Below are positions 4,338-12,971 of a stretch of DNA of 22,705 nt, in pieces. Origin of the DNA: Pseudomonadota bacterium (GTDB lineage Bacteria > Pseudomonadota > Gammaproteobacteria > Burkholderiales > Burkholderiaceae_D). The notes under the pieces were generated by a model. The model did no database searches. It saw only the letters and a list, made by a program, of their open reading frames with translations, and was not told the DNA's origin. Positions within the stretch are counted from its first letter, which is position 1. Each line of letters starts with the position of its first letter. The translations under genes were made by a program, and so were the position numbers. The stretch lies in NCBI GenBank assembly GCA_018241865.1, contig JAFECY010000331.1:1-22705 (forward strand). Reading direction: 5' to 3'.

Positions 4338-5534
4338 ATGATGCAGCAAGCCACATCAGCACAACTCCGCATCGGCATCGTCGGCGCAGGCACGGCCGGC
4401 TTGGCGACCGCCATCGCCTTTGCCCGTTCCGGCCATCATGTCCAGGTTTTTGAAAAACATCCCTCCCTCGCCACGCTGGGAGCCGGTCTGCTGATCCAGC
4501 CGCAAGGCGTGCGCGCGCTGTCCGAACTGGGCGTGCGCGACGAATTCAACGCCGCCAGCGTTCCCATCGATCGGCTGCTGGGCAAGAACCAGCGCGGCTG
4601 GCGGCTGGTTGACGTCGCCTATCCCGAGCACCACGCGCGCGCCGTTTCGCGGTCGGCGCTGGCACACCTGCTGTTGCGCGCCGCGCTCGCCGCCGGCGTC
4701 GAGGTGCGCTTCAATACGCCCATCGAACAGGTGGAAACCGATGGCAAGCTCGGCTGCATCCGCAGCGCAAGCGAACGGATGCCATTCGATCTGGTGGTGA
4801 TTGCCGACGGCGCATCGTCCGTGCTGCCGGCGCAGGTCGGATTGGCGGTGCCGTCCAGCCTGTACAAATGGGGCGCTTTGTGGGCGATGGTCGATGTCGA
4901 TCACTGGCCGCACGCGCGCGTGCTGCAGCAACGCTTCCGCACCACGCGCCAGATGTTCGGCCTGATGCCGACCGAGCGTCGTGGCGACAAGCTGCGCCTG
5001 TCGCTGTTCTGGAGCCTGCCCTGCGCTGCCTATCCGGCATGGAAAGCCTCATCGCTCGACGCCTGGAAAGCGCAGTTGCTCGACCTGTGGCCGGAATCGG
5101 CACCAGCCGTCGAGCAAATCCACGCACACGACCAGCTTACTTTCGCGACCTATCACCACGCTTGGCCGCGCCGCCTGGCCAACCCGCCGATCTGCATCGT
5201 CGGCGACGCCGCGCATGCGATGAGTCCGCAACTCGGACTGGGCGCGACGCTGGCGGTGCAGGATGCCCTGCTGCTGGCGCAACACGTCAATGCGCGAGGC
5301 GTTGCGGCGGGCACGCTATCCTTCGCCAAAAAGCGGCTGCCAGCGGTGCGTGCCTATCAAGCGCTGAGCCGCACATTGACGCCGTGCTTCCAGGCGGATG
5401 GCGGCGGACTGTGGCGCGACCTGCTGTTCGCGGCAGGCCTGCACATCCCCGGTGTGCCGTGGCTGATGCATCGCAGTATCGCCGAACCGCAACCGCGCGC
5501 CAGATTGGCGGTCGAAGAGCCTGATTGCGCTTGA
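4338..5534 (+). CDS. FAD-dependent monooxygenase (UbiH/salicylate-hydroxylase-like)
   Basis: A 398-residue class A flavoprotein monooxygenase. The N-terminal Rossmann motif GAGTAG (16-21) binds the ADP part of FAD. The middle DG motif (VVIADGASSVLP) contacts FAD and NAD(P)H. The GD motif GDAAHAMSPQLGLGA starts at residue 289 and contacts the flavin ribityl chain. Such enzymes hydroxylate aromatic or other small organic substrates with NAD(P)H and oxygen; the substrate cannot be read from the sequence. Two tandem ATGs (4338, 4341) are possible starts and no clear ribosome-binding site separates them. The gene stands alone between the cassette and the argF leader, with similar inverted repeats on both sides (4245-4263 and 5563-5576). 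Confidence 0.85.
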   Translation: MMQQATSAQLRIGIVGAGTAGLATAIAFARSGHHVQVFEKHPSLATLGAGLLIQPQGVRALSELGVRDEFNAASVPIDRLLGKNQRGWRLVDVAYPEHHARAVSRSALAHLLLRAALAAGVEVRFNTPIEQVETDGKLGCIRSASERMPFDLVVIADGASSVLPAQVGLAVPSSLYKWGALWAMVDVDHWPHARVLQQRFRTTRQMFGLMPTERRGDKLRLSLFWSLPCAAYPAWKASSLDAWKAQLLDLWPESAPAVEQIHAHDQLTFATYHHAWPRRLANPPICIVGDAAHAMSPQLGLGATLAVQDALLLAQHVNARGVAAGTLSFAKKRLPAVRAYQALSRTLTPCFQADGGGLWRDLLFAAGLHIPGVPWLMHRSIAEPQPRARLAVEEPDCA

Positions 5535-11629: not shown

Positions 11630-12694
11630 TTATTCCGGTTCCCGCACATGACGACGCTGCTTGACTGCGTCCGCCAAACCTTCCAGCACTTGCAAGCTCT
11701 GATCCCAGTTGATGCAACCGTCAGTGATCGACTGACCATAAGTCAGTTCCTTGCCCGGCACCAGATCTTGGCGACCCGCCACGAGGTGCGACTCAACCAT
11801 CACGCCGACGATGCGTTCATCGCCGCCGGCAATCTGACGCGCGATGTCGGCACATACCGGCACCTGGTTTTCCGGTTTCTTGGAACTGTTGGCATGCGAG
11901 GCATCGATCATCAGGCGCGAGGCCAAGCCGCTCTTGGCGATGTCTTGGCAAGCCGCTTCGACACTGGCAGCGTCATAGTTGGGTGCTTTGCCGCCGCGCA
12001 GGATGATGTGGCAATCCTCGTTACCGGCAGTCGAGACAATGGCCGAGTGACCGCCCTTGGTCACCGACAGGAAGTGGTGCGGCTGCGACGCCGCTTTGAT
12101 CGCATCGACCGCGATCTTGACGTTGCCGTCGGTGCCGTTCTTGAAACCGACCGGGCACGACAAGCCGGAGGCCAGTTCGCGGTGTACCTGCGATTCGGTG
12201 GTACGTGCGCCGATCGCACCCCAACTGATGAGGTCGGCGAAATACTGCGGGCTGATCACGTCGAGAAATTCGGTGCCGGCAGGCAGGCCGAGTTCATTGA
12301 TGTTCAGCAGCAGTTCGCGCGCAATGCGCAAGCCGTCGTTGATGCGGAAGCTGTTGTCGAGATACGGATCGTTGATTAAGCCTTTCCAGCCGACCGTGGT
12401 GCGCGGCTTCTCGAAATACACGCGCATGATGATTTCCAGTTCGCCGGCGTACTTGGCACGCGCCTTGACCAGCAGATTGGCGTATTCCATCGCCGCCTTG
12501 GTATCGTGGATCGAACACGGGCCGATGACCACCATCACGCGGTCGTCCTGGCCGTGCAGGATGCGATGCAAAGCCGTACGCGCCGAAGCAGCGGTGGTGG
12601 CCGCTTTTTCGGAACAAGCAAATTCACGGATCAAATGCGAAGGGGGCGTCAGTTCTTTCAATTCACGGATCCTCAGATCGTCGGTGCGCGGCAT
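11630..12694 (-). CDS. aroG: 3-deoxy-7-phosphoheptulonate (DAHP) synthase, class I
   Basis: It condenses phosphoenolpyruvate and erythrose 4-phosphate in the first step of aromatic amino acid synthesis. The 354-residue protein has the metal-ligand GPCSIHD (Cys60), EKPRTTVGWKGL, GARTTESQVHRELASGLSCPVGFKNGTDG-type core segments, MIDASHANSSK and VGVMVESHL. The N-terminal DDLRIRELKELTPP closely resembles E. coli AroG and is the region that carries feedback control by an aromatic amino acid. AAGGAG lies 7-8 bases before the ATG. Expression is probably governed by the leader peptide and terminator at 12770-12909. It is the last gene of the minus-strand run yhdP, nitrilase, tldD, aroG. Confidence 0.96.
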   Translation of the reverse strand: MPRTDDLRIRELKELTPPSHLIREFACSEKAATTAASARTALHRILHGQDDRVMVVIGPCSIHDTKAAMEYANLLVKARAKYAGELEIIMRVYFEKPRTTVGWKGLINDPYLDNSFRINDGLRIARELLLNINELGLPAGTEFLDVISPQYFADLISWGAIGARTTESQVHRELASGLSCPVGFKNGTDGNVKIAVDAIKAASQPHHFLSVTKGGHSAIVSTAGNEDCHIILRGGKAPNYDAASVEAACQDIAKSGLASRLMIDASHANSSKKPENQVPVCADIARQIAGGDERIVGVMVESHLVAGRQDLVPGKELTYGQSITDGCINWDQSLQVLEGLADAVKQRRHVREPE

Positions 12695-12769: not shown

Positions 12770-12801
12770 AAAATAAAAAAACCGCCATCGCTGGCGGTTT
12801 T
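12770..12801 (-). terminator. Attenuator terminator in the aroG leader
   Basis: On the minus strand a stem accgcca / tggcggt with a gcga loop (12798-12781) is extended by A-T pairs and followed by a T-rich run (12781-12770). It sits between the leader peptide and aroG. The 3' arm, written on the plus strand as accgccatcg (12781-12790), is repeated exactly at 12851-12860 within the leader-peptide codons; that copy can pair with the 5' arm and would then prevent the terminator. Confidence 0.82.
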
Positions 12802-12837
12802 CAGAAATTCGGTTCAGGGCTTTTACTATCCACGCGC

Positions 12838-12909
12838 TTACCGCTTTTCCACCGCCATCGGGCTGGAATAGCTAAAGTAAAAATAAAAGTAAACGGGTGC
12901 GGAAGTCAT
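12838..12909 (-). CDS. Tyr/Phe-rich leader peptide of the aroG attenuator
   Basis: A 23-residue peptide, MTSAPVYFYFYFSYSS then PMAVEKR, with four Tyr and three Phe codons among residues 7-14. A GAG lies five bases upstream of the ATG and is a weak ribosome-binding site. It ends 37 bases before the terminator stem and contains the antiterminator copy (12860-12851) just after the Tyr/Phe run. Ribosome stalling early in that run would leave that copy free to pair with the terminator's 5' arm, whereas a ribosome reaching the stop codon would cover it. This is the classic arrangement of pheA- and trp-type leaders. It is too short for ordinary gene finders. Confidence 0.8.
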   Translation of the reverse strand: MTSAPVYFYFYFSYSSPMAVEKR

Positions 12910-12942: not shown

Positions 12943-12971
12943 ATAGTGCAATAAATCGGCCTGTTTTGCAA
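12943..12971 (-). promoter_or_regulatory. Weak candidate promoter for the aroG leader
   Basis: TTGCAA (12971-12966) and CACTAT (12948-12943) lie 17 bases apart on the minus strand, about 35 bases before the leader peptide. Each matches consensus only partly. No better pair is visible between the tldD stop and the peptide. Confidence 0.3.

Follow-up and report, generated by a model that had tools for sequence, protein, structure and literature searches.

On the minus strand of the window, the whole 22,705-nt stretch of DNA that was analysed, the gap between tldD and aroG very probably carries a ribosome-mediated transcription attenuator controlling aroG, whose product catalyses the first step of aromatic amino acid synthesis. 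This reading had been put forward in an initial annotation and is supported by conservation in relatives, by covariation and by a folding model; the ORF, the pairing arms, the conservation and covariation of these and their unvarying position ahead of aroG are all read from the sequences. The upstream gene, tldD (product TldD), runs from 14456 to 12996 and aroG occupies 11630..12694, both on the minus strand, with the aroG start at 12694. That the downstream gene encodes a DAHP synthase was borne out by NCBIfam model NF006723 (595 bits for a cutoff of 568), which makes AroG the best name; the product also passed the own cutoffs of lower-scoring sister models (aroFGH, NF009395, and the AroH model NF009396). 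The gap, 301 nt long, holds on the same strand a probable promoter, a short leader ORF, and a hairpin with a T-run that lies 80 nt from the aroG start.

The leader ORF (MTSAPVYFYFYFSYSSPMAVEKR; 12838..12909, minus strand) has 23 codons, and its codons Tyr7-Tyr14, which read YFYFYFSY (12868..12891, minus strand), are the candidate control codons according to the translation and to a codon tally of relatives. The initial annotation had pointed to this 23-residue ORF, which was found again at 12909-12838 and is hardly a product of chance: of 5000 dinucleotide shuffles of the 301-nt gap, one yielded an ORF that reached 7 Tyr/Phe among 8 residues, and among the other ORFs of 10-60 amino acids in the window none has 7 Tyr/Phe in 8 residues and one has 5. 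The tally covered 83 of 85 family leaders in register (L056 and L075 were left out). At the end of the run, the final three codons read TTT in 79, TAC or TAT in 77 and TTT in 81 of the 83, and Ser AGC comes next in 81/83; this TTT/AGC bias at the end of the Oxalobacteraceae run exceeds what the amino acids alone demand. Counting back from the end, Phe, Tyr or Trp is found at the fourth position in 71/83 leaders, at the fifth in 45, at the sixth in 31 and at the seventh in 70, the remainder being other residues.

The family set consisted of the best 80 of 591 aroG loci from a scan of named genomes; their titles are mostly those of Oxalobacteraceae genera, a few giving only Burkholderiaceae, Pseudomonadota or uncultured bacterium. 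Among these best 80 of 591, an aromatic ORF (at least 5 Phe/Tyr/Trp in 9 residues) precedes aroG in 78 and a CCGCC..GGCGGT terminator with its T-run is present in 79. The exceptions to the former count are L056, with 4 aromatic residues, and L024, with 1. The latter locus, where tldD reaches close to aroG, has neither leader nor terminator and was removed from later family counts; another Oxalobacteraceae genome, G098 (L084), similarly has an aroG without the leader element. Conservation of the aromatic leader ORF in relatives, named in the initial annotation as a check on its proposal, is thus found in the family set and extends to leaders of 15 other families (see below). Behind the aromatic run, most rows are alike around GGCGGTGGA and in the GCGG that comes after it, whichever frame they are read in: the peptide may end as AVEKR-stop, as a shifted AVKSGKRS-stop or with a stop after AVE. 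What is kept in this part would therefore be the RNA, not the peptide. A family sequence model (A1) was made from 52 of 79 leaders, 27 near-identical ones and L075 being left out. With A1, the own genome (87.6% complete) gave a single full-length copy; a second one was sought in it and none of full length was found. Fifty-six of 60 family genomes matched A1 at E 0.01 or better, some of the matches being weak or partial, and aroG is downstream in all 31 A1 loci that were laid out from the own genome and the 60 family genomes (two of them being the own locus).

Between the ORF and aroG stands an intrinsic terminator, an 11-pair hairpin with the loop GCGA (12802-12777, minus strand) followed by Ts to 12775. 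The 45-nt fold has an energy of -18.2 kcal/mol and a z value of -5.0, with 1 of 200 shuffles equally good, so that the hairpin and T-run reported earlier on the ORF strand are confirmed. Four arms were delineated, all on the minus strand: arm 1 (TTCCAGCCC, 12860..12868); arm 2 (TGGCGGTGGAA, 12847..12857), within the ORF; arm 3 (GAAAACCGCCA, 12792..12802), which is the 5' arm of the terminator and also the antiterminator partner; and arm 4 (TGGCGGTTTTT, 12777..12787), the 3' arm of the terminator, from which the T-run continues to 12775. Arm 2 may pair either with arm 1 or, via TGGCGGT, with arm 3. In the 1:2 hairpin of the window, TTCCA and CCC (12868-12860) face GG-G and TGGAA (12856-12847), and the folding model favours this pairing in the absence of a ribosome (p 0.70 that the core of arm 2 is paired upstream). 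Overlooked by the initial annotation, the 1:2 hairpin is in the model a third element of the leader, one that would hide the arm copy when no ribosome is there.

The copy itself had been described as an exact 10-base repeat of the terminator 3' arm inside the peptide codons. The repeat is real (ACCGCCATCG on the plus strand at 12781 and 12851, with a third copy at 4407), but not all ten bases belong to the terminator 3' arm on the minus strand: seven (TGGCGGT) do and the CGA is loop. Because some exact 10-base repeat is present in 149 of 2000 shuffles of the 301-nt gap, the repeat alone is weak evidence and was rejected as a stand-alone argument; it is conservation that makes it strong.

Pairing was analysed in 111 leaders, 85 of family f1 and 26 of other families. 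In 110/111, the longest perfect complement to the terminator 5' arm, within the span from the aromatic run to the terminator, starts inside the ORF. For a single leader the 2:3 complement exceeds in length those of 95% of shuffles in 37/85 cases for f1 and 14/26 for the others; individual cases are thus often weak, and the force of the argument comes from recurrence and covariation. The 2:3 core is GGCGG, and its flanks change along with the terminator 5' arm, giving the compensatory arm 2:arm 3 sets CCTGGCGG:CCGCCAGG in f11, GCTGGCGG:CCGCCAGC in f4, f21, f30 and f59, ACTGGCGG:CCGCCAGT in one f30 leader and GCCGGCGGT:ACCGCCGGC in one f8 leader. When arms were swapped between 23 non-redundant leaders, 0.5% of 10000 trials reached the observed pairs (p 0.005, with kinship still in the test); pairing is confined to the core in 6 of the 23.

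Covariation was scored on the alignment of a cross-family covariance model (A2; built on 31 leaders of 11 families and including the terminator stem), keeping in mind that related sequences can surpass shuffles on such scores without any structure. For the 2:3 helix, 83.3% of cells are paired and the covariation is 0.091 versus a shuffled mean of 0.055, a value reached by 3 of 500 shuffles, and slid versions of the helix gave 0.001-0.053. Two of five covariation measures were at the level of the shuffles for this helix (both-sides-changed pairs, 2 versus 2.0; further pair types, 7 versus 6.0). The 3:4 helix is 96.4% paired with a covariation of 0.186 versus 0.115 (0/500 shuffles), and its further pair types do not exceed shuffles. 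Two rows, L113 in arm 2 and L155 in arm 3, are visibly misaligned; they were retained and counted as broken pairs. RNAalifold returned no structure for the A1 family alignment, probably because its rows differ so little and a few of them are out of register at the terminator. On this evidence the alternative pairing suggested at the outset appears conserved in relatives, and arm 2 and the terminator 5' arm seem to covary between families, although not in every measure.

For the ribosome states, RNA up to arm 3 was folded at 30 °C, a ribosome being mimicked by deletion of the 5' part it would cover and an antiterminator being called at p of at least 0.5. Without ribosome, arm 2 is predicted to be held upstream in 68/85 f1 leaders, with an antiterminator in 9/85. 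A ribosome at the last aromatic codon would give the antiterminator in 85/85 f1 and 24/26 other leaders, one in mid-run in 65/85 and 26/26, and one at the stop codon would give the terminator in all 111. In the window, the model holds arm 2 with a probability of 0.70 and gives the antiterminator 0.02 without ribosome, 1.00 at the last aromatic codon and 1.00 in mid-run, and the terminator 1.00 at the stop. Outside f1, arm 2 is held upstream in 10/26 ribosome-free leaders and an antiterminator is called in 15/26, so that basal termination without translation looks weaker there. Folded whole and at equilibrium, the leader forms the terminator in 111/111 cases, ribosome or none; the switch consequently depends on the RNA being made in order, a feature that the model mimics only by cutting the RNA. 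In several leaders arm 2 ends at least 20 nt before the stop, too far for good cover by a ribosome standing there.

We further infer a transcription start, a stalling step, a termination step and a sensed amino acid, arranged as follows. RNA polymerase would start upstream of the leader ORF with a ribosome behind it. With plentiful charged Phe-tRNA and Tyr-tRNA, the ribosome would reach the stop codon and cover arm 2, the 3:4 hairpin would form and the transcript would end at about 12775. When charged Phe- or Tyr-tRNA is scarce, the ribosome would stall in the Tyr/Phe codons and cover arm 1; arm 2, left free, would capture arm 3 ahead of the synthesis of arm 4, the terminator would not form and aroG would be transcribed. 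If there is no translation at all, arm 1 would keep arm 2 and the terminator would form.

When 300 whole genomes of the order were searched with the A2 model, 85 gave a match at E 1e-4, and for 80 of these it was full-length with at least 43 bits. The gene aroG is directly downstream of all 80 full-length matches, as judged by tblastn for 30 loci and 18 stretches, by laying out the locus for G433 and by coordinates for 31; 24 of the matching genomes had supplied the model, which makes the placement true by construction for them, and 56 had not. A further match of 38 bits, in G519, where aroG is absent, was left out of the 80. In 75/80 the leader has a stretch of 8 residues with at least 5 Phe/Tyr/Trp; the run is weak or lost in L105 (4) and in four leaders of one family, L300 (4), L304 (3), L274 and L278. 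L274, L278 and L304, all f42, keep the leader layout and the terminator before aroG with the aromatic run nearly gone. The matches belong to 14 of about 50 families sampled in the order (f1, f3, f4, f8, f9, f10, f11, f18, f21, f28, f30, f38, f42 and f48). A sample of 323 genomes of the class gave 7 matches; four lie outside the order (three in f59, one in f64), and here too the element stands before aroG. Judged by its sequence features, the leader element is thus recognizable in 16 families, two of them outside the order. Examination of 60 aroG upstream stretches by an ORF filter and by reading found 18 with and 42 without a leader; absence at several of the 42 goes with the end of tldD or of another gene nearby, which would account for it. 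Loci L082-L110 and L171-L199 were oriented by tblastn and the 60 stretches by match strand. Tandem aroG-type genes were seen in G143 (C1 2562489-2564623), G021 (C1 2636360-2638526) and G350 (C35 23452-25587); in the G143 and G021 tandems the leader precedes the first aroG-type gene.

A probable promoter was picked out by eye upstream of the ORF (12943..12971, minus strand): TTGCAA at 12971-12966, a spacer of 17 nt and CACTAT at 12948-12943, which together score below the promoter-scan threshold. Relatives have CTTGCCAA at this site, with GCACTAT or TATAGT. A 7-pair hairpin (CGGCTTG CAAAA CAGGCCG, 12975-12957) overlaps the probable -35 box, and some relatives show TTGCCAA and then TTGGCG near it, possibly an operator. 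In f1 leaders a TANNNT motif mostly ends 20-34 nt upstream of the AUG. Among the 26 non-f1 leaders it ends 5-9 nt before the AUG in 15, each other 5-nt bin holding 0-2; the corresponding figures were 15/25 in a second set (other bins 0-3; L273 and L277, without a terminator by pattern, were left out, L243 repeats L128 and L272 is f1) and 8/19 in a third (other bins 0-2). Pooled without the repeat and the f1 row, 37/68 leaders have the motif there (examples of such a -10-like hexamer, ending 6-9 nt before the AUG, being L114, L118, L124, L138 and L166); they are from f4, f8, f10, f11, f21, f38, f42 and f48, and in this pool of 68 no leader of f3, f9, f18, f28, f30 or f59 has it. A -10 box in this position would place the transcription start at the AUG or a few bases from it, and so many leader mRNAs in these eight families may begin at or beside the AUG.

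The element has the make-up of trpL/pheL/hisL-type attenuators: a short ORF rich in end-product codons before a biosynthetic gene (78/80 of the best of 591 loci, 75/80 model matches), an intrinsic terminator between ORF and gene (79/80 of the best of 591, z -5.0, covariation) and, going by sequence and model only, an antiterminator incompatible with the terminator, which would be able to form when a ribosome stalls. Rfam 15 gave no family at gathering score in the window or in 10 relatives. The best sub-threshold match is to Phe_leader (RF01859), which we take to be the family of pheA leaders; its layout is the same as that of the aroG leader and the whole model aligns to 12910-12772 (25.7 bits, E 0.026). 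This is weak evidence, since the gathering score of 55 is missed by a wide margin and RNAI, an unrelated model, comes close to the same value (22.9 bits, E 0.03). Proteobacterial attenuators are reportedly the subject of Vitreschak et al. 2004. The main text of a survey of premature terminators contains no word beginning with DAHP, the accessible portions of a regulon survey of Proteobacteria place aroG under TrpR and TyrR only, and no betaproteobacterial aroG leader is named in the accessible portions of the open-access literature searched, where an earlier mention is possible. The mechanism proposed here is the known, classical ribosome-mediated attenuation, and the betaproteobacterial aroG case is unnamed in that literature.

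Comparison with described systems relies on the accessible portions of the papers cited. The nearest case, missing from the initial annotation, is the aroR leader of aroF in Corynebacterium glutamicum, which encodes a Phe-Tyr-Phe peptide and raises transcription on Phe limitation (PMC11802643 citing Neshat 2014; PMC4046766), Tyr availability being said to have no effect (PMC11802643). Both leaders encode a Phe/Tyr peptide before a DAHP synthase gene; unlike the present one, with its long run, aroR has three aromatic residues and is from an actinobacterium, and the likeness is by description only. In Acholeplasma, uORFC-13-1 upstream of aroF combines, like the aroG leader, a Phe-coding uORF with a terminator before a DAHP synthase gene (PMC8632094), but it belongs to another phylum and is described as having at least one Phe residue. 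An attenuator sensing Tyr-tRNA has been suggested for aroF of Escherichia coli and Shewanella (PMC2659441 citing Camakaris 1980; PMC8632094); the enzyme and the proposed Tyr signal are alike, and the structure of a leader peptide is not given there. The attenuator RNA rnTrpL of Sinorhizobium meliloti starts at the leader AUG (PMC7298713), as may many non-Oxalobacteraceae aroG leaders, and differs in its Trp codons and in its target, trpE. Phe occurs in all of the 111 leader peptides, Tyr in 108 and Trp in 31, and four f11 peptides have the run FFFGFF, without Tyr. With Phe in all 111, these Tyr-less runs and an aroR said to answer only Phe limitation, Phe is the safest signal: it is most likely sensed, and Tyr possibly so.

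The same hairpin, standing between tldD and aroG, would end tldD transcripts too, and the 80 nt downstream of the T-run in the window provide room for a second promoter. It might thus be an ordinary tldD terminator accompanied by a chance ORF, with aroG transcribed from its own promoter downstream of it. We consider this highly improbable, because aromatic codons would not persist in a chance ORF in 78 of the best 80 of 591 loci and across 16 families, nor would chance hold the arm copy inside the ORF in 110/111 leaders; besides, the T-run ends at most 32 nt before aroG in 24 of 79 loci (from the best 80 of 591), which leaves little space for a promoter.

The strong conservation of both peptide and RNA within Oxalobacteraceae would also suit a leader RNA or peptide that acts in trans, like rnTrpL/peTrpL of Sinorhizobium, with attenuation of aroG being secondary; trans roles have been reported for an attenuator RNA and its leader peptide in S. 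meliloti, in the accessible part of that work (PMC7298713). The constancy of the bases behind the run despite changes of frame and stop (AVEKR, AVKSGKRS, AVE-stop) speaks for RNA pairing rather than for a job of the peptide and makes a conserved trans-acting peptide unlikely, while the T-run and the covarying terminator stem indicate termination. We accordingly give the trans reading very little credence, and attenuation of aroG transcription is retained as the explanation.

A broader proposal, which we put forward tentatively and with some doubt, is that an old attenuator present in 16 families is the main transcriptional control of entry into the shikimate pathway and that in at least eight families its leader mRNA starts at the AUG, amino acid sensing then beginning with initiation on a leaderless mRNA. 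If this is true, the short terminated RNA could also act as a small leaderless mRNA or as a trans-acting RNA, as rnTrpL does. Those leaders that seem to start at the AUG would tell whether an attenuator of this group can be based on leaderless initiation. The leaders are a natural experiment, in that the arms and their position behind the aromatic codons stay constant across widely different peptides, and the approximately 160 leaders read from 16 families could found a new RNA family. To conclude, the attenuator offers a likely explanation of the way in which a large bacterial group regulates entry into the synthesis of aromatic amino acids.
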